52,692 nt of DNA from an uncultured Bacteroidota bacterium (GTDB taxonomy: Bacteria; Bacteroidota; Bacteroidia; Flavobacteriales; Flavobacteriaceae), in the NCBI GenBank assembly GCA_902574335.1, contig CACGNO010000003.1, forward strand, positions 1 to 52,692, in the 5' to 3' direction. This document shows positions 23,843-52,692 of the stretch, piece after piece. Within the stretch, counting starts at the first letter, position 1. Every line of letters starts with the position of its first letter. The notes below the pieces were generated by a model. It worked only from the letters and a program-made list of their open reading frames with translations, searched no databases and was not told where the DNA came from. The translations under genes were made by a program, and so were the position numbers.

Positions 23843-25764
23843 GATTTATTATTAAAGTTTTTTAATCCTTCAGCTAGCCAAGTGTAATAAGTTTCAGTAT
23901 CTGTATATTGTAATGGTTTGTTTAATAGTTCTAGTTCTGGAGATAAAAGAACATAGTACGGCTGGGAATTATTTTTAAAATTTATGGTTTGAAATGCAGA
24001 CCACTTCTCTCCTACTTTGTCTAAAATCTTTTGATTTCCATTTTTATCTTTTAATACAATTATTTCTTCATCTGACAAATCAGATCTATCATCTACATAT
24101 AATGATATTAGAATAAACTGATTATTTATTAAATCATAAACTTTCGGAACTGACCAGGTATTTTCTTCAACTCTTCGACAGTTTGCACAAGCCCAACCTG
24201 TAAAGTCTAATAAAATTGGTTTATTTGTTAATATAGATTCATCTAATCCATCATTAAAATCTTTAATACAATCAAGTCCAAGCGGACAATTATTTGAATC
24301 ATTATAAATTGAGTAAAACTCAGGCGGCAATAAGCCACTTAATAAAGACATGTTTGTAGACTTTGTAAATAATGAACTACCCATATATAATCCAATCAAA
24401 ATAAATCCTAAAGATGAAATTATATAAGATGTTTTTCTTGATGTTATTATTAAGTAAATACCACATGCTATCGAAATTAACACCCAAATTGCTATAAATA
24501 CTTCTCTTTTTAATATACCCCATTCTTGAATAAGATCAACATTGGATAAAAATTTAAATGCTAATGCTAATTCAACAAAACCTAAAATAACTTTTATTGA
24601 ATTTGTCCAAGAACCTGATTTGGGTAGTTTATTAATGATATTTGGAAAAAATGCTAGCAATGTGAATGGAATTGCCAATGCAACTCCAAACCCTAACATA
24701 CCATAGGTTAAGTCAATTGCTCCTCCATCAGATGTCAAAGTTCCAACTAAAAGTGTTCCTAGAATTGGCCCCGTACAAGAAAATGATACCAAACATAATG
24801 TCAAAGACATAAAAAAAGTAGAGATTAAACCTTTATACATATTTGATTTTGAATCAACAGTATTTGACCATGAAGAAGGTAATGTGATTTCAAAGAGCCC
24901 AAATAATGAAAGTGCAAATGCAATAAAGATTGCAAAAAATATAAAATTTAAAACAGGGCTGGTTGAAATCTGATTTAATATTTCAGGATTGATATTTTCC
25001 AAAAAATAGAAAGGGATACTTAATGAAACGTAGATTAGTATTATGAATAGTCCATATGACATGGAATATAGCTTAGCTTTTTCGTTCTTGGTTGAAAAGA
25101 ATGATACTGTGAGTGGAATCATTGGAAAAACACAAGGAGTAAGTAACGCCAAAAACCCTCCCAATAGACCTAGTATTAAAATATTAAGTCTTCGAGAGAA
25201 ATTGTTATCTATTTCTGCAACATATTCGTTTTCTAAAAGTTCAGAATTTCCTAAATCAAGCTTTAGATCACTAACAATTGCAGAATAGTCAAATGAAGTT
25301 ACTGAAGCAGAGTATTCTGAATTTAGATTGAAAACAAGTTTTACATCTTGAAATATACAGACCCTATCATCACAAACTTGATAATATAAGTCTTGAATAA
25401 TAGAATTTTGATCATAATTTTCATTTAGCGTAATCTCTTGGGTAAATACTGTTTCATTTATAAAATATGATTGATCCATTTTAAATATTGGATCATACTT
25501 TGTTATTGCATCTAGTTCAATAACATCCGAAACTGACTCAAAAATAGATTCATCCTCAAATACGAATTCAGTTGGAAGTGCACCTCCTTCTTCTAAATTT
25601 TGAGAATATAATCTCCAATTTTCTTGAATAATTGCAATTGTGTTAAGTTTAAATTTATTCTCAGTAATCTTTTCGACTGAAGTTGACCATTTGACAGGGT
25701 CTTGTGAAAAAGATAAAATGGAAAATAAAACAAATAATATTTTTAAATAGAAATTTTTAAACAT
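23827..25764 (-). CDS. dsbD: Thiol:disulfide interchange protein, DsbD family
   Basis: N-terminal secreted domain, TM core with GLLGGFLALLTPCVFPMIPLT, C-terminal thioredoxin-like GWACANCRRVEE. Confidence 0.9.
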   Translation of the reverse strand: MFKNFYLKILFVLFSILSFSQDPVKWSTSVEKITENKFKLNTIAIIQENWRLYSQNLEEGGALPTEFVFEDESIFESVSDVIELDAITKYDPIFKMDQSYFINETVFTQEITLNENYDQNSIIQDLYYQVCDDRVCIFQDVKLVFNLNSEYSASVTSFDYSAIVSDLKLDLGNSELLENEYVAEIDNNFSRRLNILILGLLGGFLALLTPCVFPMIPLTVSFFSTKNEKAKLYSMSYGLFIILIYVSLSIPFYFLENINPEILNQISTSPVLNFIFFAIFIAFALSLFGLFEITLPSSWSNTVDSKSNMYKGLISTFFMSLTLCLVSFSCTGPILGTLLVGTLTSDGGAIDLTYGMLGFGVALAIPFTLLAFFPNIINKLPKSGSWTNSIKVILGFVELALAFKFLSNVDLIQEWGILKREVFIAIWVLISIACGIYLIITSRKTSYIISSLGFILIGLYMGSSLFTKSTNMSLLSGLLPPEFYSIYNDSNNCPLGLDCIKDFNDGLDESILTNKPILLDFTGWACANCRRVEENTWSVPKVYDLINNQFILISLYVDDRSDLSDEEIIVLKDKNGNQKILDKVGEKWSAFQTINFKNNSQPYYVLLSPELELLNKPLQYTDTETYYTWLAEGLKNFNNKSYFLK

Positions 25765-27013
25765 TCACCATCAGTTTTAATTAGTCTTTTATCAACTCTC
25801 ATACCAATAATCCATATAATTTGATTGTTAGCATCAGTTAGAATCCATTTATTTTGCTTGTCAAAAATCGACAATTTTTCATCTTTAAAAAATTTACTTA
25901 CCTTTTTTTTACCTATCATTCCATAAGGATAAAAAAAATCACCGGTTTCAAATTTTCTTACTTTTAGTGGCATTTTCACTTCATTACTTATATATATTTC
26001 ATTTTTTAAAGGTTTCTTTGATTTCTTGGATATCTCTACAATTATATTTATTGGATTTTTATTTTTACCCAAATTGATTTCAAAATTCTCATAAATTGTA
26101 TCAGAAATCTTTTTATTAAAAGTTTTTTTCTGTTTGAAATAATTTCATGTGATTGAGAGAAAATCCTTTTTCCGGTTGATGCCCTTAATATTTTAATAAT
26201 TTCAGAGTTTTTAAAAAAACCATATTTTCTAAATAGTATAAACTCAACTGATTTACTGTTTAAATCATTCCATTTGTTTTTGTCTGTTTGAATTATTCCA
26301 TTATCAATTGTCTCAAAAAATATTTTTTCAATTTTAAATAGATAATTGTTGGTGTTTTTCTTTTCAATTTTTGACTTTTCGATTAATTGTAGGAAGTTTT
26401 TTCGATATGATGGGTCAATTGATTTTATTTTAGGAATAAGAATATTTCTTATTTTATTTCTCAAATATTTATTTTCAAGATTAGACATGTCCTCTCTCCA
26501 TTTTAATTTATTTTCGGACGCAAATTTAATTATGTCATCTTTTGAAAAAATCAACATTGGTCTGATAATATTATCGTTAATCTCCTTTATACCACTGAAA
26601 ACATTTATTTTTTTTCCTCTATAAACATTTATTAGTAAGGTTTCAATGTTGTCATCTATATGGTGAGCAGTTAAGATATAGTCGTATTTATTTTGTTTAC
26701 ATAAATTATCAAAGAATTTATATCGAATTTTTCTTGCTTGCTCTTGAATTGATTTTCTTTGATTAGATAGGTTATGCCTTTTTAAATAAAATTTAATTTT
26801 ATTATCAAGACAATACTTATCTAAGAATAATTCATCTTTTTCACTTTGATTTCCCCTCAATTCATAGTTTACATGTGCAATTGAAAAATGAATTTTTGCT
26901 TTTTTTAGAAGCTCACACAAAACAATGCTATCAACTCCTCCACTAACTGCTACAAGCAATTTGCTTCCCGATGGAACTATTTTTTTAATATGCTGTTTGA
27001 ATTGATCAAGCAT
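25743..27013 (-). pseudogene. tilS: tRNA(Ile)-lysidine synthase split into two frames (26048..27013 and 25743..26072); frameshift or recoding at A-runs
   Basis: First frame has the SGGVDS PP-loop and TilS N-terminal domains; second frame has the C-terminal TilS domain (KVRKFETGDFFYPYGMIGKKKVSKFFKDEKLS). Frames join by a -1 shift between about 26110 and 26129. Confidence 0.85.
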
Positions 27014-27025
27014 ATTTCAAATATA

Positions 27026-28297
27026 CTACTTAAGTGATTTAATCATTGGCTCAGCTTTAAGGAGACATTCTTCAAATTCACTTTCCGGATCAGATTTAAA
27101 AGTTATTGCACTTCCAACACTCACATTGATTTCTTTCAGTACCTTATCATAAATAATTGATCTTATAACTACATTAAAGTCAAAATCTTTATTGGGTTTT
27201 ATATAGCCAATTGAACCACTATATAAACCTCTTTTTGTTGATTCGTATTCATCAATTATATTCATTGATTCAATCTTAGGAGCCCCGGTCATACTTCCCA
27301 TTGGAAACATTCCAGTAATTATTTTAGAAAATTTGGTTTTAATAGAAATTTCAGCTTCAATAGTTGAAATTAATTGATGAACTCTTTTGAACGTGTTTAA
27401 TTTATTAAGATTCTTTACTTTAACTGAACCCTTTTCAGCCACTCTAGATAAATCATTTCTAACTAGATCTACGATCATATGATTTTCTGATAATTCTTTA
27501 GGACTGGACAATAATGTATACTTTATTTTCTCATCTTCTTTTGAATCTAGACCTCTTTTTGCTGTTCCTTTTATGGGTTGGCTTATGATTTTTTTATTAA
27601 CTCTTTTTATAAATCTTTCGGGAGAGGATGACAATAAGTATAGTTGATTTAATTTAAAAAAAGTACTCATTGGTGACCTGGTATAATCATTAAGTTTTAT
27701 ATATGTTTTATAAGGATTAATTGTTTTGTTTTTACTAAACATATCAAAACAATAATTCATTTCATAACAATCACCTTGCAAAATTCTCTGTTTTATATTT
27801 TTTATTTTTCTTACATATTCCTCTTTTGATGTTCTTGTAATCAAATCCACTGAAGATTTCTCTGTACAATCTTTATAATCAATTGAATTTATATGATCCC
27901 AATCTTCATTTAGGTTTTTTTCATCCAGTGAATATATCTCTGCTTTTTCTTCTTTAATTAACCAAATGACCTTTGGCTGATAAAAATATAAATTTGGCAA
28001 ATTGAATACATCTTTGTTCAGGTCAGTTAAATTTTCAATTTCATTTTTTAAATCATATGAAAGATATCCAAATATCCAATCGTTAACTGTGTGAATGTAT
28101 TTGTCAATTTTTTTTAATGAATTTTTAGATGATTGTAAAAATGACTCAGCACCGTAAGCAATAATTAATTCATAATCATCAAAACCATCATTTGAATTTA
28201 AAAGGGTAAAATGACTTTGCTCAGATGAAAAATTAACAATTTTTTTTACAAATAAATCCTTGTTTTTAAGACTGTATGATTTTGAAAATCTTTTCAA
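27026..28297 (-). CDS. pabB: Aminodeoxychorismate/anthranilate synthase component I family (chorismate-binding; PabB-like)
   Basis: GDCYEMNYCFDMF, SSPERFIK, PIKGTAKRG, ELSENHMIVDLVRNDLSRVAEKGSV, FPMGSMTGAPK. Confidence 0.85.
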   Translation of the reverse strand: MKRFSKSYSLKNKDLFVKKIVNFSSEQSHFTLLNSNDGFDDYELIIAYGAESFLQSSKNSLKKIDKYIHTVNDWIFGYLSYDLKNEIENLTDLNKDVFNLPNLYFYQPKVIWLIKEEKAEIYSLDEKNLNEDWDHINSIDYKDCTEKSSVDLITRTSKEEYVRKIKNIKQRILQGDCYEMNYCFDMFSKNKTINPYKTYIKLNDYTRSPMSTFFKLNQLYLLSSSPERFIKRVNKKIISQPIKGTAKRGLDSKEDEKIKYTLLSSPKELSENHMIVDLVRNDLSRVAEKGSVKVKNLNKLNTFKRVHQLISTIEAEISIKTKFSKIITGMFPMGSMTGAPKIESMNIIDEYESTKRGLYSGSIGYIKPNKDFDFNVVIRSIIYDKVLKEINVSVGSAITFKSDPESEFEECLLKAEPMIKSLK

Positions 28298-29452: not shown

Positions 29453-30922
29453 ATGACAACTAGAAACATTTTTAAACTCCTATTTATTTTATTTATTATA
29501 ATATCATGTGCTAATTTATCTGATAAAAAACCAAATATTATAGTATTTATTGCTGATGATGTTAGTTGGGACGATATTGGCTGTTATGGAAATAATGATG
29601 TTGTAACTCCTAATATTGATTCGCTAGCAAAAAATGGATTAATATTTAAAAATGCCTACTTGACCACTAGCTCATGTAGCCCAAGTAGAAATTCTATCCT
29701 TACTGGAAGATATCCACACAACACTGGCGCAGCTGAATTACACACAGAACCACCAGTTGAAATGATATCTTTTGTTGAATTATTAAAAGATGATGGATAT
29801 CATACTTTACAAGCAGGAAAATTTCACATGGGTGAATATGCAAAAAGGGGGTTTGATCAGGTAAATGAAAATAAAAAGGCAAATGGACCAGGTGGTGAAA
29901 AGTTATGGGTAGAATCCGTTAAAAATAGACCAAAATCAAAACCTTTCTTTATGTGGTTTGCTTCATATGATGCTCATCGAGTTTGGGGAGATAACGAATT
30001 TTCAGGAACTCACAATCCAGATCTAATAAAAGTTCCAGAATATCTTGTTGACGGAGATTTAACTCGTTTGGATTTAGCTGATTATTATGATGAAATAACA
30101 AGATTTGATTTCCATATTGGAAAAGTTATCTCTGAGTTAAAAGCTCAAGGAGAATATGAAAACACTTTAATTATAGTCATGGCTGATAATGGTAGACCTT
30201 TTCCTCACAGTAAAACAAGGTTGAATGATCAAGGTGTTAAAACACCATTTATCATCCATTACCCCGAATTACTGAAAGAAAATAATGTTGTGAATAGCTT
30301 GATTAGCTCTATCGATATTGCTCCAACTTTACTCGATATTGCTGAAATTGAAATAAAAGATAATTTTCAAGGAAGAAGCTTCTACAGCCTTATTAAAAAT
30401 CCAAATCAAAAATTTAGAAACTATGTATTTGCTGAACATAATTGGCATGATTATGAGTCTTATCAAAGAATGGTTAGAAACGATAGGTATTTATATATTT
30501 TAAATTCTAGACCTGATTTTCCACAAGAAGGCCCTTTGGATGCTATAAATAGTCCTACTTACATAGATCTTAAAACAGCACAAAAAAACAATACTATTAC
30601 TAAGATTCAAGCTGAAATCTTTATTCAACCTAGACAAGCAGAGGAATTATATGATTTAATTAATGACCCATATCAGTTTAATAATCTTATATCTAGTGAA
30701 AAAATAGAAGATGAATATTTATTGCTAAAAAATATTTTAAATAATTGGATAACAGAAACTGGAGACTCAAAACCAATCCAGATAACAAACGATTGGTATC
30801 TTAGAGAACAAGAGCCATTTAACGAATCATCATTACTTAAGACTGAATTTCATGGAATTAGAGGAGAAATGCCTGGAAAGTCAACAAATGCAGTCAAAAA
30901 CAATAATAAGGGTCCTTTTTAA
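29453..30922 (+). CDS. Sulfatase (S1 family, Cys-type), lipoprotein
   Basis: PNIIVFIADDVSWDDIGCYG, CSPSRNSILTGRYPH (formylglycine motif), MADNGRPFPHSKT; lipobox IIISC. Confidence 0.92.
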   Translation: MTTRNIFKLLFILFIIISCANLSDKKPNIIVFIADDVSWDDIGCYGNNDVVTPNIDSLAKNGLIFKNAYLTTSSCSPSRNSILTGRYPHNTGAAELHTEPPVEMISFVELLKDDGYHTLQAGKFHMGEYAKRGFDQVNENKKANGPGGEKLWVESVKNRPKSKPFFMWFASYDAHRVWGDNEFSGTHNPDLIKVPEYLVDGDLTRLDLADYYDEITRFDFHIGKVISELKAQGEYENTLIIVMADNGRPFPHSKTRLNDQGVKTPFIIHYPELLKENNVVNSLISSIDIAPTLLDIAEIEIKDNFQGRSFYSLIKNPNQKFRNYVFAEHNWHDYESYQRMVRNDRYLYILNSRPDFPQEGPLDAINSPTYIDLKTAQKNNTITKIQAEIFIQPRQAEELYDLINDPYQFNNLISSEKIEDEYLLLKNILNNWITETGDSKPIQITNDWYLREQEPFNESSLLKTEFHGIRGEMPGKSTNAVKNNNKGPF

Positions 30923-43074: not shown

Positions 43075-43740
43075 GTGAGAATACTTGTTTTTTTTATATT
43101 TATACCTATAGTCGTAATGGCACAGACGAATTTTAACACGTCTGATATGTATGAATCAAATTTTCAATTGGTTCAAAGAGAAATAGCTTCTGTTTATAAC
43201 CCAAAAACTACAACCTTTACAGGTAATAAGTATTTTTATAAAAAATCCAAAGAAGCAGTACTTGTTTTAATTGATGGTGAAGACGCTATAAAAGTCAAAA
43301 CGAATTATAACTTACTTGATCAAACTTTTGACATTGAAGGAGAAGACAATATATTAAAATTAGAACCTAATAAGGTTTTAAAAGTCACATTCAGTGATAG
43401 AGTTTTTGTCTCTAAAAATGGAAAGTTTTATGAATCTATTGAAGAAAATTCTAATTTTTCTTTACTAGCCGATACTTTTCTTGAAGCATTTATACCTGAA
43501 TATCAACCAGGAATTCAGGAAAAACCAGATCCTAGATATAGAAAAAATAATTCTGTTTTCTTATTCTATAATAATAGGTTTACATACATTGAAAGAAGAA
43601 AAAACTTTTTGATTTCTATGTTTAACAAATCCAAAACAAAGGAAATAAACACTTTTTATAAGAAAAATAAAATATCACCGAGAGATAATGAAGAACTTAA
43701 AGATCTATTCATTACTTTTTTTGATTTTCTAAACTTATAA
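43075..43740 (+). CDS. Hypothetical secreted protein (GTG start)
   Basis: 221 aa, signal peptide MRILVFFIFIPIVVMAQ; family not recognised. Confidence 0.7.
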   Translation: MRILVFFIFIPIVVMAQTNFNTSDMYESNFQLVQREIASVYNPKTTTFTGNKYFYKKSKEAVLVLIDGEDAIKVKTNYNLLDQTFDIEGEDNILKLEPNKVLKVTFSDRVFVSKNGKFYESIEENSNFSLLADTFLEAFIPEYQPGIQEKPDPRYRKNNSVFLFYNNRFTYIERRKNFLISMFNKSKTKEINTFYKKNKISPRDNEELKDLFITFFDFLNL

Positions 43741-44343
43741 TTCGAGCATCAACTTAGCTCTTCTATTAATTTCTTTCCAATCTTTATTATTTATCAGTTC
43801 ATTTGTTGCGATCCAACTTGCTCCAACACCAATAAAGCATTCATTTTTAACAAAATCCTTGGCATTCATGTCATTGATTCCACCGAGAGCGATAAACTTC
43901 ACATCTAAGGATTTAAAAGGAGAATATATTGACTTAAAGTAAGTCAATCCCCCCAATTGAATAGTTGGAAATAACTTTAAAGTCTTACAGCCTAATTTTA
44001 TTGCAGTATTAATATCTGATGAAGTAGATACTCCAGGAACAAATTTATAATCAATCTTAAATGATTCTTTAATTATTTCAATATCACTACATGGAGATAG
44101 AGCAAAGTTTGCACCAATATCCTTAGCAAAATACAAATCTTCTAAATCTAAAACAGTTCCAACTCCAATATTAAAATCAAGGTTGGTATTTGATATGAGT
44201 TCAATTGCCTTTTTAGCTTCTTTGGTTCTTAAAGTAATTTCTAAATTTCTAATTCCCGAATCAAAAAGACATCTTGCAACATCAACAGCTAACGCAGAAT
44301 TCTCAATTGTAAGGACTGAAATAATTTTATTTTCCTTAAGCAT
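43735..44343 (-). CDS. eda: Bifunctional KDPG / KHG-type (or KDPGal) aldolase
   Basis: NLEITLRTKEA, GVGTVLDLEDL, FALSPCSD, FVPGVSTSSDI, LKLFPTIQLGG. Confidence 0.9.
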   Translation of the reverse strand: MLKENKIISVLTIENSALAVDVARCLFDSGIRNLEITLRTKEAKKAIELISNTNLDFNIGVGTVLDLEDLYFAKDIGANFALSPCSDIEIIKESFKIDYKFVPGVSTSSDINTAIKLGCKTLKLFPTIQLGGLTYFKSIYSPFKSLDVKFIALGGINDMNAKDFVKNECFIGVGASWIATNELINNKDWKEINRRAKLMLEL

Positions 44344-45325
44344 AATTAATTGAATTATTTATTCTAAAAGCTTCTATTTCCTTATCATCAAAGCAGTTTA
44401 CATCCCCAAATTTTGTGTGTGATATTGCAAATGCTGCTGTTGCAAAAGAAACTACTTTTTCAATCGGCCAGCTTTTTAAAAATCCATATAAGGTAGCTCC
44501 TGTAAATGAATCTCCTGCACCTACTCTATCAACATGTTCAAAATTGTATATATTACTTTTATATATTTTACTTTTTTGAAATATTAACCCTCCAATTTGA
44601 TCTTTATTTCTAACTGTCATACATATAGTTGGTATATTATTCACATTTAATATATTTTTTAAAGTCTCCTCAGATTCATTATAAAAGTCATTTAATTTTA
44701 CCTTTGATTTTAAATCAAAAACATGATTAAATGTATTTGAATTAGTAAAAAGAATATCTATATATTTTAAAATTTTCAAGTTAAAATTTTTACTTTCAGA
44801 CCTGGACCATAGATCTTTTCTGTAATTAATATCATAAACAATCTTTATGTCGTTGTTCTTAGCTTTTTCTATTAGCTTAAAAATATTATCGTAGCAAACA
44901 TTTGAAAGTGGTGGTGTGATCCCTGATATAATTATATGAGAACAATTCTTAAGGGATTTATTTATGAACTTATCATTTAATTTGAATTTAGAAAAACTAC
45001 TATTTTTTCTATCGTAAATAATTTTAGATGGTTTATTTTTTGTTCCAGGGATTATGAGGTATTTTCCAAGTCTATTATGATCAATATTAGCGTTGACCTT
45101 TACTCCGTGTGAGTTTAAGAAGGATGTTGCTTTATTACCTATTTCATTTTCTGGAAATGATGATAAAAATTCACAATTATACCCTCTTCTTCCTAAAAAA
45201 GACAATGAGTTAGCTTCAGAACCACCATAAGTACTAAGTAATTTTTCACTAAAAGTTGAAAGAAAATCATAATTTTCAGGGGTCAACCTAAGCATTAATT
45301 CACCATATCCAACAATTTTCTCCAT
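44336..45325 (-). CDS. kdgK: PfkB-family sugar kinase, 2-keto-3-deoxygluconate(/galactonate) kinase-like
   Basis: GYGELMLRLTP, YGGSEANSLSFLGRRGY, RVGAGDSFTGATLYG; adjacent to eda. Confidence 0.85.
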   Translation of the reverse strand: MEKIVGYGELMLRLTPENYDFLSTFSEKLLSTYGGSEANSLSFLGRRGYNCEFLSSFPENEIGNKATSFLNSHGVKVNANIDHNRLGKYLIIPGTKNKPSKIIYDRKNSSFSKFKLNDKFINKSLKNCSHIIISGITPPLSNVCYDNIFKLIEKAKNNDIKIVYDINYRKDLWSRSESKNFNLKILKYIDILFTNSNTFNHVFDLKSKVKLNDFYNESEETLKNILNVNNIPTICMTVRNKDQIGGLIFQKSKIYKSNIYNFEHVDRVGAGDSFTGATLYGFLKSWPIEKVVSFATAAFAISHTKFGDVNCFDDKEIEAFRINNSINYA

Positions 45326-45326
45326 A

Positions 45327-46328
45327 TTATACAGAATTTCCTAACCCTAAAACAACTGCAGAAATGATTAATACGAATAAACCAATCAATAATTTATTGA
45401 AAGGTTTTTGTGCATTATCCCATTCACCAGCATTGTATGCCCAATAATTACTGATAATTAGAGATAAACCTAATAATATGGGCCAACCGATAACTGGACC
45501 AATTTCACCAAGTAAAGCAGCTCCTTGGCCGTAAACACCTAAGGCAGCAAACCAACAAAAACCTGCAATTAATGACCATTTATAAGCATTCAGTGAATTT
45601 TTCAAACTAAAAGTACTCCATGAATTATTTTTAAATAAAAGCAGTACAGCGTATGTGAAATTCATAATAAAAGCACCCCATAAAACAACGACCCATGCAG
45701 CAAGACTTGAATTTCTAGTAATAACTCCAAATTCTTGAGCTTTTTCTGCAATTGGAGCAGCATTTGCAAAACCAACATTCAATAAGGATGATAGCAATCC
45801 ACATGTTACAGCAATCAACAATCCTTTTAATATATTTTTAGATTTACTTGAGGAATTAATTAATTTGTCTCTATCAATTCCGGCTTTTGCTGTAATGGCA
45901 ACCCCAATTAGTGATATTATTAAACCTCCTATTATGTAAGGAAATGATGGTTGAGAAGTAGCATTCTCAATCTGAAAGAGTGGAATTAAACTACCAGCAG
46001 ATCCTGCAAGACCCATAACAATTCCCATTGTAAGAGATAAGCCAATGTAAGGGACACTAACACCAAACATTATACCTCCAATTCCCCACAAAAAACCATA
46101 TAGCATTGCAGAATAAATAGCATCTTTTGGAGAACTAGCTATAATGTCAAACAAATCTGGAATTACAATATATGCCCAAATCATTGGGAATAAAATCATA
46201 GCGACTAAAACGTGAATCACCCACCATGATTCCCATGACATTGGATTCATATATTTCATTCCTAAACCGAACGTTCCTTGAAAAAAACTTGCAAAAATTA
46301 ATAGTAAAAAAGGTAAAAATAGTTCCAT
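45327..46328 (-). CDS. RhaT-like (L-rhamnose/proton symporter family) sugar transporter
   Basis: ~10 TM, FFQGTFGLGMKYM, WESWWVIHVLVAMILFP, VMGLAGSAGSLIPL. Confidence 0.8.
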   Translation of the reverse strand: MELFLPFLLLIFASFFQGTFGLGMKYMNPMSWESWWVIHVLVAMILFPMIWAYIVIPDLFDIIASSPKDAIYSAMLYGFLWGIGGIMFGVSVPYIGLSLTMGIVMGLAGSAGSLIPLFQIENATSQPSFPYIIGGLIISLIGVAITAKAGIDRDKLINSSSKSKNILKGLLIAVTCGLLSSLLNVGFANAAPIAEKAQEFGVITRNSSLAAWVVVLWGAFIMNFTYAVLLLFKNNSWSTFSLKNSLNAYKWSLIAGFCWFAALGVYGQGAALLGEIGPVIGWPILLGLSLIISNYWAYNAGEWDNAQKPFNKLLIGLFVLIISAVVLGLGNSV

Positions 46329-46330
46329 AG

Positions 46331-47773
46331 TTATTGTTTTGTAATAGTTATTCTTTTTTTAATGAGATAATCCTCCAATGCTAGTTCTGAGCAATCATGA
46401 CCCACACCACTCTCCTTAATTCCACCATGTGGAAGATAAATATCATACTTAATCCCATTTACGTGGATCTCCCCAAAGTCAAGTTCATCAATAAATCGAT
46501 TAATTCTAATTTTATCATTGGTAAATATATATGATGCGAGTCCATATTTTGTATTGTTTGCAGATAATAGAACATCATCATCAGATTTAAATGGTATTAA
46601 TGTTGCTACAGGACCAAAAATCTCCTCATGAAAAATCTTCATTTTATCATTTACACCAGAGATAATTGTTGGATATATCCAATTTCCTTTGTCTAAGTTT
46701 TTGGGTGTTTTACCTCCGTATTCAAGACAACCACCACTTTCTACAGTGTTTTTAATTAACCCTAATACTCTGTCTTTAGATTTATTTGTAATTAATGGTC
46801 CAATGTCATAGTCAAGTTCTTTATTATAACCAATCTTAAGATTTTTGGCTTTTAAGATTAGTTTATTTAGAAAGGAATCAAAAATATTTTGATGAATATA
46901 AAATCTATTAGCAGCAACACATATTTGTCCACAATTTCCAAATTTAATAGCAGCTCCTATATCGGCTGCAAGATCAATATCAGCATCATCAAATACAATG
47001 AAAGGTGCATTTCCACCAAGCTCCATACTATATTTTTTAATTGATGTAGATGAATCGGATATTACTTTTTTTGCAGTTTCAGTTGAACCAATCATCGTAA
47101 TTAAATTTGGAATGATACTTTTTGACAATGTTGTTGCAACCTGATTGGGTTCTCCACAAATAATATTTACCACACCCTTAGGAAAATCAATTTCATCAAG
47201 AATTTGAGCAATAATATACATGGATAATGGTGATAATTCAGAGGGTTTTAGAATAATACTACAGCCAGAAGCAAGAGCAGGACCTAATTTAAAACCAGCA
47301 TTTAACAATGGAAAATTCCAGGCTAAATATGCTACCACCACACCAATAGGTTTTGAAATCAAATAATGCTTATGAGTATTTTCATTATCTATAATTTCTT
47401 TGTCTGATTGATAATCTTCAATAATATCAGAATAATATTTTAAGCTGTTTGTTATTGATTCAATATCTTCAGCTGTGGCTGAGTATGGTTTTCCCATCTC
47501 ATAAGAGATAGACTTTCTTAATATTTCTTCATTTTCCAATATTTTTTCTCTAAAAAGAAGCATCCACTCTTTCCTTTTTTTAATAGGAGTATTTGACCAA
47601 ACTTTAAATCCCTCTTTTGCCGATTCTAGAGCCCTAATAGAGTCATTGCTTGATCCCCATGCAAGAGTTGCTATTTTTTCATCATTTAATGGGCTAATAA
47701 TATCCTTAGTAATAGTGTTGTGTGAGGAGGTTAACTCTCCATTAATATACATTTTAAGGTTACCAAAAAACAT
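46331..47773 (-). CDS. Aldehyde dehydrogenase family protein
   Basis: VAYLAWNFPLLNAGFKLGPAL, ELGGNAPFIVFDDAD, NCGQICVAANRF, EEIFGPVATL. Confidence 0.93.
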   Translation of the reverse strand: MFFGNLKMYINGELTSSHNTITKDIISPLNDEKIATLAWGSSNDSIRALESAKEGFKVWSNTPIKKRKEWMLLFREKILENEEILRKSISYEMGKPYSATAEDIESITNSLKYYSDIIEDYQSDKEIIDNENTHKHYLISKPIGVVVAYLAWNFPLLNAGFKLGPALASGCSIILKPSELSPLSMYIIAQILDEIDFPKGVVNIICGEPNQVATTLSKSIIPNLITMIGSTETAKKVISDSSTSIKKYSMELGGNAPFIVFDDADIDLAADIGAAIKFGNCGQICVAANRFYIHQNIFDSFLNKLILKAKNLKIGYNKELDYDIGPLITNKSKDRVLGLIKNTVESGGCLEYGGKTPKNLDKGNWIYPTIISGVNDKMKIFHEEIFGPVATLIPFKSDDDVLLSANNTKYGLASYIFTNDKIRINRFIDELDFGEIHVNGIKYDIYLPHGGIKESGVGHDCSELALEDYLIKKRITITKQ

Positions 47774-47775
47774 AA

Positions 47776-48903
47776 CTAAATCTTTATTTCATTTAAATAA
47801 GTTTCATCAACATCAACACCCAGACCAGGTTTATCATTAACAGAAATATAGCCATCCTTCATTATAATATTATCTTTTATAATGTTTTCTCGAATTTTAT
47901 TTTCTGTTCTATCATATTCAATATATGCATCTTCTTTATATAATCTTCCTGGAATTGGTTCAAGATTAGAAATAAAATTAATTGCTGTATAAAAGGCAAT
48001 GCCTGAACCCCAAGTGTGAGGAATAACTTTTACTCCTTTTGTTGAAGATAAAGCAGATATCCTTTTTGCCTCAGTTAAACCTCCACATGAACATATGTCC
48101 ATCTGTAAAAAATCAACACAGTTTTTGTCCAAAAGTTTTTGAAAACCGTATCTGAGATACTCACACTCACCAGCTGCAACTGGGATTAAGGATTTTGATT
48201 TAAAATCTGAATATTGATCGTAAAACTCAGGCGACAATGGTTCTTCAAACCATTTAATATCTTGATCTTCTAATTTCTTGGATAATTTTAAAGCCTCATC
48301 ATATGAGTATGCGTGGTTTGAGTCTATCATTAATTCAATATCCGGACCAATGGCATTTCTAACTGCTTTAACATTAGAAATATCATCCTTTAAATTTAAA
48401 CCAACCTTCATTTTAATTGATTTAAAGCCCTCATTTACATATTCCAAAGCTTCATTACATAAATCATCAGTTAACGTCTTTGAATCAGAAAAATAAAGTC
48501 CAGTTGCATATGGTCTTATTTTTTCTCTATATGAACCACCTAATAAAGTAGATACAGGTAGTTTATGATATTTTCCTTTAATATCCCACAAAGCAATGTC
48601 TATAGCGCTTATTGCAGAAACAAAAACACCTGATCTACCATAATCATGAACTCTTCTAAATAATGTTGACCAAATAACATCAGACTCAAGTGGATTCATA
48701 CCAATTATATTTTGTTTGATATAATTAATACTTTCTTTAACGACTGGAGCTGGTCCATAAGCTTCACCCCATCCAACTATTCCATTATCACAGATGATCT
48801 TTACAATACAAATTTTTCTATTACTATATTCCCATTGGGAAAAAAAGAACTCTGTTTCAAGATCCTCATTTAATACATATGGGATAATTGTAGATATTTT
48901 CAT
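47776..48903 (-). CDS. Enolase-superfamily mandelate racemase/muconate lactonizing-type enzyme (sugar-acid dehydratase or cycloisomerase)
   Basis: SAIDIALWDIKGK, SIKMKVG (KxK), IDSNHAY, WFEEPL, AGECEY, HTWGSG; start at MKISTI. Confidence 0.9.
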   Translation of the reverse strand: MKISTIIPYVLNEDLETEFFFSQWEYSNRKICIVKIICDNGIVGWGEAYGPAPVVKESINYIKQNIIGMNPLESDVIWSTLFRRVHDYGRSGVFVSAISAIDIALWDIKGKYHKLPVSTLLGGSYREKIRPYATGLYFSDSKTLTDDLCNEALEYVNEGFKSIKMKVGLNLKDDISNVKAVRNAIGPDIELMIDSNHAYSYDEALKLSKKLEDQDIKWFEEPLSPEFYDQYSDFKSKSLIPVAAGECEYLRYGFQKLLDKNCVDFLQMDICSCGGLTEAKRISALSSTKGVKVIPHTWGSGIAFYTAINFISNLEPIPGRLYKEDAYIEYDRTENKIRENIIKDNIIMKDGYISVNDKPGLGVDVDETYLNEIKI

Positions 48904-48904
48904 T

Positions 48905-50503
48905 TTAAAATCCTTTCCAGAGACCATTTGAATCTCCATTTATATAATCAATTTTAATATTGCTAAAAAACTTTGGATATGGATAATTATAAGTATGATT
49001 CACACTATATCCATTATCATCTAATAATCCCGCATCATCAAGAAATGCTTGATAAAAACTATTTGTATAAATGTTATTACTGGGTTGAATTAATACGTTT
49101 TTTGGCCAATGGTTTTTTAAAAACAGATTATTTTCAAAAAACACATTTTCAATTTCTAATTTACCTCCAGAATCCGGCTTGTATTGATCTCCTAGGACCA
49201 TAACGGGATCGTTTTCAAAATAAAATATATTGTTTGCTACAAATACACCTTTTGCTTTTTTATCTACAGCAATCTTTGGTATAATTTCTTTTCCAACATA
49301 AATATAATTGCCATAAATATATGAGTTGTATGGACCTTTTCTCTCATTTCCTTTTCCTGAATATCCACTTAACCAGAAAGTTTTACCCTCTTGAAATGCA
49401 TTTTTCTTTCCTTTAATCCTATATCCATCATTAATACTGACATTGTTTCTGTATGAGCAATTAAAGTTTGTTCCTAAAATTTCAATAAAACCACCAGCAT
49501 TATTTCTACTTAAATTATTTTCAACTATGATATCATTACAGTTAAAGTCAATATGACATCCTGCTGAGTCAGCTGGTCCATTGGCATTTTGAAAACTATT
49601 ATTTGTGATTAAACCATAGGAACTTCCCCATGTCCATAAACCACTTCCCCTTCCCCATTTTCGGGGGTCATCATTTGATCCTGTATAATTAATATCATTA
49701 TTTTTAGCTAATAGATTTGTAGTACTATTAAAAACCATTCCTGGACCCCCAGTTTTAAATACTTTATTTTTTAAAATATTTATGTTTTTAAATTGATTGT
49801 TCCTTTTACCAATAAGTCTAATAGCAGTATGTGAAATATTTATAAACTCTGAATCTTGAATAGTAATATTCTCGAGATTTCCATTTTCAGAAAGATTTAG
49901 AATTCTAATACCCCAACCGTAATTCTGTGTTCCATTAGGAGTTTTAACCTCTTTTTTATCTCTAATAAAACCTTGATTTTCATAAAAAACATCTTTTATT
50001 GAAACGTTAGTTATTTCTAAATTATTATGTTCTTTTTTATCAGTTACTAAGTATAAAATTCCAGATCTTAAATCAGATTTTAGTTTTTTATGTAAAAATT
50101 CATTAGCACCACCACCGTTAGCTGTAATTTCAATATTGTTAATATTAATATTTGACGAATTTTCAATAAAAACAGATGCTATTTTACCTTTTGAGTTGAT
50201 TGTTGGAAGTTTATTAATACTATCAGCTTGGTAGTTTGAGATTTCAATTCCATTTTTGTTTACTAACTCAATTGTATTTAAAAAAGTAGAACCGTTTGAT
50301 AGTAATATCTTATCTCCGTTATATAATTCAATCTTATCTAAATAATCAAGGCTTTTGAAAGGCTTTTCTTTTGTTCCTAAATTTGAATTCTTACCGTAGA
50401 TTGAATTAAAGTAATAAGAGTTGCCAATTTCATTTTTCTCTCCATATTGTACCCCATCACATGATATAAAAATAGATAATATAAGTACAAATATTTTTTT
50501 CAT
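48905..50503 (-). CDS. Right-handed parallel beta-helix lipoprotein, putative carbohydrate-active enzyme
   Basis: Lipobox FISCDG; repeated beta-helix rungs; motif GPADSAGCHIDFNC...NLSRNNAGGFIEILG shared with the neighbour. Confidence 0.85.
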   Translation of the reverse strand: MKKIFVLILSIFISCDGVQYGEKNEIGNSYYFNSIYGKNSNLGTKEKPFKSLDYLDKIELYNGDKILLSNGSTFLNTIELVNKNGIEISNYQADSINKLPTINSKGKIASVFIENSSNININNIEITANGGGANEFLHKKLKSDLRSGILYLVTDKKEHNNLEITNVSIKDVFYENQGFIRDKKEVKTPNGTQNYGWGIRILNLSENGNLENITIQDSEFINISHTAIRLIGKRNNQFKNINILKNKVFKTGGPGMVFNSTTNLLAKNNDINYTGSNDDPRKWGRGSGLWTWGSSYGLITNNSFQNANGPADSAGCHIDFNCNDIIVENNLSRNNAGGFIEILGTNFNCSYRNNVSINDGYRIKGKKNAFQEGKTFWLSGYSGKGNERKGPYNSYIYGNYIYVGKEIIPKIAVDKKAKGVFVANNIFYFENDPVMVLGDQYKPDSGGKLEIENVFFENNLFLKNHWPKNVLIQPSNNIYTNSFYQAFLDDAGLLDDNGYSVNHTYNYPYPKFFSNIKIDYINGDSNGLWKGF

Positions 50504-52279
50504 CTAATTTCCATTATATGCACCAATATTAGGTTTTGAATTAGAACTTACTGAATTTCCAAAGTAATCTCTTCCCCCATTATTCTGTATATAGTTTTTG
50601 ATATCGTCACTACCGTTAATAATATAACCTGATCCAATTGCAGGACTAGAAGCTTGTAATTTATAATCATTCGGGGTTGAACCACCAGGATTAGCTAAAA
50701 GTGGATTTGTAAAAATTTCTGTACCATTATGCTCATAATCAGATCCTCCATCAATAACTAAATTACCAAAGAATAGATTGTTTTTCCAATCATTTACTGT
50801 TCCATCATTCCTCGTATCAATTTTTAATTTTGCTTTATCGCTTATATATATTAAGTTGTTATAAATGTATGTATTCTTAGTATTTGGTCTTATAAAAATT
50901 TCTAGATGATCAAATGGAGCATTATTATTAGCTGGATTTTGGCTTGGAATAAAAACTGTATTGTTGTATATGAAATTATCCTCAGATCCAATTCTTCTAG
51001 TATTGCTTCCAGCATAGTCAGAGATCCAAAAGGTTCTACCCGTATTAGAATTTGTTCTACCTCCATCACCAATACTAATATTATACCTGTATCCACACAT
51101 TATGTTTTCACCTAAAATCTCTGCAAAACCACCATAATTATTTTTACTCAAATTATACTGAATAACAACTCTTTCACATCCCCAATCTATATGTGCTCCA
51201 TAAGAATCTTGAGGTCCATAAACATCCTCAAATAGATTATTTTGAATTACAGTATCATTACAAGTGTATGTCCACAAGCTGCTTCCCCTATTCCACATTC
51301 TGCTATCTTTTCCTGAACCCGATCCCTTAAATTCAGAATTTTCAACAATAACATCCTTACATCTGGCTAAAACAATCCCTGAGCCACCGGTATCTGTAAA
51401 CTTTGAATTTTTTATTACAATATTTCTATGGTAATAATCTTCTTGAGCACCAGTCATTCTATTTACTATATGTAAACCATAATGTCCAGTGTTTGAAATA
51501 TCTAAGTTTTCTGCAGTAATACCATCATAATAATTCAATACATTGTCATCATTTTCTGATTCAAATCTAATACCATAACCTTGATGATTATTATCAGAAT
51601 CTGTTGGTGAAGGATATATATTATTTATTTTTAAGTCACTTAAGCTTATATTTTTAACGTTATTAGATCCACTTCTTAAAACCAGTAGTCCATATCTTTC
51701 ATTTAATCCTGATCTACTTGATTGGTTCATAAGTTTAACTGATCCATTACTATTTTTGTGAGATGCTTGATTTGTTAATTCTAAGCCCGAAATAGTAACA
51801 TATTCTCTATTTTCAATGAACACAGCTGCTTGATATCCATCACCATCAATAACAGGTTTGGTACCACTAGCATAGTTTTCAATGACAATTGGTTTGTTTT
51901 CAGAACCAGACCCTCTAAGCTTAAAATAACCTTTCCATGTTTCACCTGATTTAAATTTAATTTTATCACCAGGGTTAAAGGTAATGCTATTAATTTTTCC
52001 TAAATTTTTAAAGGGCTTATCTTCACTTTTACCATCATTGTTATCATTTCCAGAGTTATAACTTATATAGTAAGTTGTATCACCAGGTGATGTTGTCGAA
52101 TCAAAATCATTTGGGTCTGTAGTGTCAGTGGTTCCTGAATTATTTCCTCCACCGTTATTGTTCCCCCCACCGTTATTGTTTCCTCCGCCGTTATCAGAGC
52201 CTCCACCATCACCCCCCGAGTCAGATGAACATGCAATAACAAAAAACGATATAATTAGTAAAAAAATTTTCTTTTTCAT
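50504..52279 (-). CDS. Right-handed parallel beta-helix lipoprotein with Gly/Asn linker, putative carbohydrate-active enzyme
   Basis: Lipobox FVIACSSD, GGGNNN linker, beta-helix rungs, motif GPQDSYGAHIDWGC...NLSKNNYGGFAEILG. Confidence 0.85.
   Translation of the reverse strand: MKKKIFLLIISFFVIACSSDSGGDGGGSDNGGGNNNGGGNNNGGGNNSGTTDTTDPNDFDSTTSPGDTTYYISYNSGNDNNDGKSEDKPFKNLGKINSITFNPGDKIKFKSGETWKGYFKLRGSGSENKPIVIENYASGTKPVIDGDGYQAAVFIENREYVTISGLELTNQASHKNSNGSVKLMNQSSRSGLNERYGLLVLRSGSNNVKNISLSDLKINNIYPSPTDSDNNHQGYGIRFESENDDNVLNYYDGITAENLDISNTGHYGLHIVNRMTGAQEDYYHRNIVIKNSKFTDTGGSGIVLARCKDVIVENSEFKGSGSGKDSRMWNRGSSLWTYTCNDTVIQNNLFEDVYGPQDSYGAHIDWGCERVVIQYNLSKNNYGGFAEILGENIMCGYRYNISIGDGGRTNSNTGRTFWISDYAGSNTRRIGSEDNFIYNNTVFIPSQNPANNNAPFDHLEIFIRPNTKNTYIYNNLIYISDKAKLKIDTRNDGTVNDWKNNLFFGNLVIDGGSDYEHNGTEIFTNPLLANPGGSTPNDYKLQASSPAIGSGYIINGSDDIKNYIQNNGGRDYFGNSVSSNSKPNIGAYNGN
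52139..52190 (-). repeat. ~18-bp tandem repeat encoding GGGNNN linker
   Basis: Plus-strand units ttattgttccccccaccg (52155-52172) and ttattgtttcctccgccg (52173-52190), with a partial unit at 52139-52154. Confidence 0.8.
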
Positions 52280-52332
52280 AGATTAGTAATAATGATATTT
52301 ATATGAGAATAATAAATATAAAAATAAATATT

Positions 52333-52692
52333 ATGATAAAACACTTACCACTTTTATTCCTTTCATTTTTTTTATTAAATAGTTGTATTAATCATGAAAA
52401 AAAATCACCAAATATTCTTTTAATCATGATTGATGACTTAAATGATTATAATGAAGACCTTAATGGACATCCACAAGTCATTACTCCAAATATCAAAAAT
52501 TTTGCTAAATCAGCTGTATCATTTAAGAATGCTTATTCAAACGATCCAATGTGTGGTCCGTCCCGATCTAGCATGTTACTTGGAGTGTATCCTCATAACT
52601 CATCTAACTTTTGGCAAAGATCATGGTTACATAACAATGTGTTGTCAAACACAAAAACCATAATGGAAAAATTTAAAGAAAATAATTATGAT
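52333..52692 (+). CDS. Sulfatase (S1 family), lipoprotein; truncated by window end
   Basis: Open frame to window end: MIKHLPLLFLSFFLLNSCINHEKKSPNILLIMIDDLNDY...NDPMCGPSRSSMLLGVYPHNS (CxPSR formylglycine motif). Confidence 0.9.
   Translation, partial: MIKHLPLLFLSFFLLNSCINHEKKSPNILLIMIDDLNDYNEDLNGHPQVITPNIKNFAKSAVSFKNAYSNDPMCGPSRSSMLLGVYPHNSSNFWQRSWLHNNVLSNTKTIMEKFKENNYD

Follow-up and report, generated by a model that had tools for sequence, protein, structure and literature searches.

A tightly packed operon of seven minus-strand genes (43735-52279) probably serves the utilisation of 3,6-anhydro-D-galactose (D-AHG) together with the extracellular breakdown of a carrageenan-like galactan, a reading that we hold at a probability of about 0.83. 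The window analysed here, 52,692 nucleotides in length, is the entire contig C3 of its genome (G000; 0.92 Mb, 57% complete), so the right side of the locus was read from relatives instead. As the initial annotation had it, the seven genes, which follow one another with gaps of -8, 1, 2, 2, 1 and 0 nt, lie 53 bp (52280-52332, read from the sequence) away from a divergent sulfatase. The Pfam families of all operon genes score over cut-off, and some 20 other genomes have the genes in the same order, far beyond chance. The D-AHG route is supported by the scores of two enzymes, DauA and DauB, by the match of a symporter and by the bracketing of DauB in a phylogenetic tree, which together lead us to reject a plain dehydratase route.

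The MR/MLE protein (47776-48903, start ATG at 48903) is predicted to be DauB, the 3,6-anhydro-D-galactonate cycloisomerase. Compared with the PDB, its best match is DauB (5OLC, 445 bits), followed by AtGCI (312 bits), whereas L-rhamnonate and L-fuconate dehydratases reach 132 and 101 bits, values that rule out the dehydratase clades. It keeps all the catalytic residues named for DauB (K166, D194, E220, E246, H296, D87 and W298; PMC5698469), and also the lid-loop motif FxFSQWxY and the ECEY motif. At 50 diagnostic positions, invariant across eight DauBs of GH127- or DagB-bearing loci and different in AtGCI, the window protein equals DauB at 38 and AtGCI at 3, although it shares with AtGCI the enolase subgroup, the catalytic residues and the ring-opening chemistry. 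A 51-sequence tree, whose root is approximate because the AtGCI outgroup branch is long, nests it among the DauBs, with the Zobellia branch on one side and DauBs from other GH127-bearing loci on the other. By scores, tree and diagnostic residues, then, the protein groups with 3,6-anhydro-D-galactonate cycloisomerases and outside the rhamnonate, fuconate and gluconate dehydratases. A single origin of the GH127-free type of locus was not supported, as the same tree mixes both locus types. In L130, L131, L132, L141 and L126-L128 the bh1-bh2-symporter block is kept while DauB comes from other branches of the tree (55-58% identical to that of the window), which suggests replacement of dauB inside the operon.

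The aldehyde dehydrogenase (ALDH; 46331-47773) is, likewise, the predicted DauA, or 3,6-anhydro-D-galactose dehydrogenase. Its best PDB match, at 475 bits, is 6PNU, the characterised DauA of Pseudoalteromonas PS47 (PMC6923384), with a 170-bit lead over the next family (305 bits), and it is about 50-57% identical to the ALDHs of other dau loci, several of them with GH127. Its nearest relative is thus DauA and not a lactaldehyde or semialdehyde enzyme, and the assignment of the two proteins as DauB and DauA orthologs is well supported by these comparisons.

The scores bear on two other pathways. The first, a plain sugar-acid dehydratase route in which the MR/MLE protein would dehydrate an ordinary aldonate (gluconate, galactonate, rhamnonate or fuconate) to a 2-keto-3-deoxy acid, would agree with the KdgK/PfkB kinase and Eda-type aldolase of the operon, which fit a KDG route, and the NCBIfam arabinonate and galactonate dehydratase models do score weakly on the MR/MLE protein. 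All these scores, however, fall far under cut-off (best 242.9 against 650), and with the PDB scores of the rhamnonate and fuconate enzymes so low beside that of DauB, DauB-like diagnostic residues and a DauA-like ALDH, we consider this route very improbable. The second is the pathway for the L enantiomer of anhydrogalactose (L-AHG; agar/porphyran). The L-AHG cycloisomerase 5XD7 is also a member of the enolase superfamily, and the L-AHG pathway ends at KDG, which would suit a PfkB kinase and Eda; but 5XD7 matches the window protein with 151 bits, compared with 445 bits for the D enzyme, which leaves this pathway hardly any probability.

Returning to the D-AHG route, the RhaT-like DMT sugar/H+ symporter (45327-46328, PF06379), which had been suggested as the importer of the released sugar, is 60% identical to the Zobellia-type counterpart of ZGAL_3157 (DMT3157) and 61-68% identical to those of other dau loci. 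ZGAL_3157 belongs to the carrageenan cluster and is induced by carrageenan (PMC5698469), and we propose the same role, predicted from this match, of anhydrogalactose importer. The identities of DauA, DauB and the transporter are in this way shown, at the level of protein comparison.

The last two enzymes depart from those of Zobellia. The kinase (44336-45325, PF00294), predicted to act on a 2-keto-3-deoxy sugar acid, belongs to the PfkB family, unlike the DgoK-type DauC, and its best solved relative is the Thermotoga maritima KDG kinase 2AFB (163 bits); the KDPG/KHG aldolase (43735-44343; PF01081, 7.6e-48; TIGR01182 over cut-off) is Eda-type, unlike the DgoA-type DauD, with 28% identity to a Zobellia-type DauD. 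These families are encountered more often with the gluco isomer (KDG/KDPG). A PfkB kinase is also found in a GH127 and DagB carrageenan locus (L039/L040), and an HpaI-type aldolase in other loci, so this step is readily exchanged. We therefore propose the PfkB kinase in the role of DauC and the Eda-type aldolase in that of DauD, splitting 2-keto-3-deoxy-6-phosphogalactonate. The expectation that the operon holds the activity set of the Zobellia D-AHG branch thus holds for DauA, DauB and the symporter, while kinase and aldolase come from other families. In this part of the window (43735-45325), kinase and aldolase are just 47-53% identical between close relatives, against 86-89% for DauB and the symporter and medians of 67-78% for neighbouring housekeeping proteins; as judged from these identities, the kinase and aldolase genes evolve or get replaced much faster than the remaining operon genes.

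The two right-handed beta-helix proteins, bh1 (50504-52279) and bh2 (48905-50503), present but unplaced in the initial annotation, can now be placed as GH136-related glycosidases. Both N-termini, read by eye, carry a lipoprotein signal. A family profile built from 19 homologues matched the GH136 lacto-N-biosidases of the PDB with E-values from 1.5e-49 (7V6M) to 7.6e-40, the sole other significant match being a beta-helix alginate lyase (8e-11). AlphaFold2 models (pLDDT 88.5 for bh1 and 87.7 for bh2) gave as best Foldseek matches TnX (7V6M, 6.2e-21) for bh1 and LnbX (5GQC, 2.7e-14) for bh2, with PL6, PL9 and other folds far behind. An Asp-x6-Asp pair, D358/D365 in bh1 and D312/D319 in bh2, is invariant in alignments of 42 and 34 sequences and falls on the acid/base and nucleophile positions of ErLnb136 (D568/D575 in PMC7335108, positions 570/577 of the 6KQS chain, the offset of 2 being our deduction). 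On models and alignments, bh1 and bh2 have the GH136-type fold and dyad.

It could be argued that bh1 and bh2 are instead polysaccharide lyases or uronan-modifying proteins (of the PL6 or mannuronan epimerase type) that have no part in the anhydrogalactose route, since PL6 and AlgE folds do occur lower down the Foldseek lists. The E-values for GH136 are better by several orders of magnitude, however, the Asp pair is invariant, and close homologues of the bh proteins are dau-linked, all of which makes a lyase improbable.

Within the GH136-related assignment, several features set bh1 and bh2 apart from the lacto-N-biosidases LnbX, ErLnb136, TnX and BsaX. They share the beta-helix and the acid/base and nucleophile Asp seven residues apart, but identity in the Foldseek alignments is only about 16-22%, they are lipid-anchored, and their context is a marine galactan rather than milk oligosaccharides, in which lacto-N-biosidase activity seems unlikely. 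GH136 activity requires a GH136-I partner domain or subunit (PMC7335108). We found none in the operon, where bh1 has only a Gly/Asn-rich linker ahead of the helix, bh2 has nothing and there is no extra gene, and for that reason call the proteins GH136-related, not GH136. Another beta-helix family of carrageenan breakdown, the GH110 alpha-1,3-galactosidases of lambda-carrageenan loci (9BEU, 9BEV), matches them weakly in structure (Foldseek, 7.2e-4 and 3.9e-4).

By elimination, context and catalytic residues, we infer that the bh pair substitutes for the missing GH127/DagB anhydrogalactosidases and/or for a carrageenase. Since the linkages that GH136 enzymes cleave are beta bonds and their products disaccharides, release of neocarrabiose by one of the two is at least as likely as anhydrogalactosidase activity. 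Of the 26 rows in the window-type bh1 clade of a tree, 25 are dau-linked, as are all 24 rows of the bh2 clade. Some bh2-type relatives belong to genomes and loci that carry no dau genes (L099, L100, L115 and L116), so bh2 is not tied to anhydrogalactose and need not act on such a bond. A general link between bh1-like proteins and dau was rejected: a large Crocinitomicaceae/Flavobacteriales branch is unlinked, with dauB in 1 of 14 such genomes. This separate branch (L143-L166, L170-L188; about 37-45% identical) is found in metagenome-assembled genomes (MAGs), where its conserved gene neighbourhoods are different ones and lack dau. Small-genome Flavobacteria (L049, L091, L092, L098, L220 and L221) have a third bh1-like paralogue, which adjoins a conserved GH16 or is close to it; this GH16 is 56-92% identical between loci, and dau genes are also nearby in L049 and L091.

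The divergent gene on the plus strand (52333-52692, cut at the contig end; PF00884, 9.2e-17) encodes a sulfatase lipoprotein with a CGPSR formylglycine motif, starting at ATG 52333 or at an alternative in-frame ATG at 52303. Its full-length relatives have 550-559 aa, with a GH2 gene next. With only about 30% identity to the counterpart of ZGAL_3146, it falls outside the CgsB-type S1_7 sulfatases. A second, isolated sulfatase (29453-30922, CSPSR motif) is flanked in the window by a peptidase and a dihydrolipoamide dehydrogenase. To the right of the operon, relatives carry the sulfatase, the GH2 gene and then housekeeping genes. The prediction that the locus continues rightwards with polysaccharide genes thus holds for the sulfatase and GH2, but housekeeping genes follow, and SusCD lies mostly at another locus. 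An orthologous SusCD pair is beside the operon in L127, L128 and L138; it is not in the window and was not found in the 57%-complete window genome. The SusD adjoining the operon in L128 has counterparts 62-76% identical in eight related genomes, among them AG-447-L22 (L121/G400), whose bh1 is 97% identical to that of the window. Seven of the eight, all with surroundings that were read, belong to a conserved separate locus that also encodes SusC, a GH2 of LacZ type, several S1 sulfatases and perhaps an esterase; the eighth (L138) adjoins dau genes.

The usual anhydrogalactosidases, GH127 and DagB, were found neither in the window genome nor in its relatives of the same genus. GH127 (PF07944) was not found in G000, G334, G151, G004, G363, G068, G194, G240 or G400-G404, several of which are incomplete; it was found in the Zobellia-like G001 and in G248, once, unlinked, in G406, and as a borderline fragment in G405. 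DagB gave no match in 13 small genomes, in a search run without a positive control, though the same protein scored by BLAST in other loci. GH78 was rejected as the missing anhydrogalactosidase: it occurs in L128 and some larger loci, but just one of the 11 carriers searched has it. An AraC regulator (CgrA-like) is absent from the operon and present in only some related loci. Elsewhere in the window genome, a GH16 gene and an S1 sulfatase gene are neighbours (contig C1, about 24841-27429; L218:7842-10430), and the GH16 protein has kappa-carrageenase as its best NCBIfam match, at 94.8 bits (cut-off 350). G248 carries two dau loci (L083-L086); GH127 is present in one and missing from the other, which has the operon-type sulfatase and a GH2. 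This suggests two D-AHG polymers or polymer forms.

Compared with the Zobellia galactanivorans carrageenan cluster ZGAL_3145-3159, which contains dauABCD and dagA/dagB (PMC5698469), the operon has in common DauA, DauB, a ZGAL_3157-type DMT symporter, sulfatases and GH2-type beta-galactosidases. In most relatives SusCD is unlinked, as cgtAB is in Zobellia. The operon differs from that cluster in being without GH127 (dagA), DagB, the S1_7 sulfatase and the AraC regulator, in having a PfkB instead of a DgoK kinase and an Eda-type aldolase, and in its two added GH136-related lipoproteins. The canonical Bacteroidetes carrageenan polysaccharide utilisation locus (PUL) core comprises dauA-D, dagA, cgsB, cgrA, cgtA and cgtB (PMC5698469). 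The view of the operon as the monosaccharide end of a sulfated algal PUL is supported by the D-AHG route, while the locus, in which no GH127 or DagB was found, is not a standard carrageenan cluster. The kappa/iota-carrageenan locus of Pseudoalteromonas, a gammaproteobacterium, shares with it DauA and cytoplasmic D-AHG oxidation, and likewise has no identified anhydrogalactosidase (PMC6923384); it has GH16/GH167 enzymes and, in the part of its description available to us, no GH136-related proteins.

A scan of named genomes returned 22 loci whose bh1 shows 59-97% identity, 21 of which have adjacent dau genes, mostly in the same order; on their divergent side stands the sulfatase, usually with GH2 too where the contig reaches far enough. 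About 20 small-genome marine single cells and MAGs (mostly 0.9-1.9 Mb) share the operon; further bh lineages with linked dau genes are those of Saprospiraceae-type genomes (L169, L177 and L182), of L191 and of L049/L091. From the record names (AG-numbered single cells, MED-G, NAT and FRAM) we take the carriers to be marine plankton; in a literature search, no paper tied AG-447 to a site, and for MED-G14 only the unrelated name MED-G140 appeared.

To our knowledge, D-AHG, the hallmark sugar of carrageenan from red algae, occurs only in red-algal galactans; with carriers that are apparently ocean plankton, a related anhydro-sugar is possible. In that case the substrate of the same enzymes might be some other anhydro- or lactone sugar, released from a microalgal polymer unlike carrageenan, much as AtGCI acts on galactaro-1,4-lactone. 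Red macroalgae are scarce in the habitat to which the names point, kinase and aldolase are unlike those of Zobellia, and the window protein differs at 12 of the 50 DauB-diagnostic positions. Nevertheless, its DauB is bracketed in the tree by DauBs of GH127/DagB carrageenan loci, the lid loop, the ECEY motif and the transporter counterpart are all kept, and the same genome holds the kappa-carrageenase-like GH16 and S1 sulfatase, so that we regard a different sugar as unlikely and a carrageenan-like polymer, possibly a planktonic food source, as the probable substrate.

For D-AHG from such a polymer, the lipid-anchored bh1 and bh2, the sulfatase and the neighbouring GH2 would degrade a sulfated carrageenan-like galactan outside the cytoplasm, the galactan being taken up via a SusCD pair whose genes lie at another place in the genome. 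The symporter would bring released D-AHG into the cytoplasm, where DauA would oxidise it to 3,6-anhydro-D-galactonate and DauB would open the ring to give 2-keto-3-deoxy-D-galactonate; phosphorylation by the PfkB kinase and cleavage by the Eda-type aldolase would then yield pyruvate and glyceraldehyde-3-phosphate.

The intracellular D-AHG pathway is known from algae-associated bacteria. What sets the operon apart from known D-AHG clusters is the presence of bh lipoproteins in place of the usual sugar-releasing enzymes, and the combination of pathway and bh pair in small-genome plankton is a hint that ocean plankton feed on a carrageenan-like polymer. We entertain, at somewhat less than even odds, a stronger version: that the bh proteins form an undescribed carrageenan-type glycosidase family, acting as anhydrogalactosidase and/or neocarrabiose-releasing enzyme and replacing GH127/DagB, and that a D-AHG polymer regularly serves as food in the open sea; it draws on the spread among small-genome planktonic Flavobacteria. 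Our literature searches found nothing relevant on GH136 with carrageenan or on anhydrogalactose in bacterioplankton, and no report of a steady supply of carrageenan-like sugar in the water column. The operon offers specific candidates for the release of anhydrogalactose, a step for which some carrageenan degraders have no identified enzyme (PMC6923384), and makes bh1 and bh2 candidates for GH136-type enzymes outside the gut. Its retention in about 20 streamlined marine genomes would point to just such a steady supply of carrageenan-like sugar in the water column.
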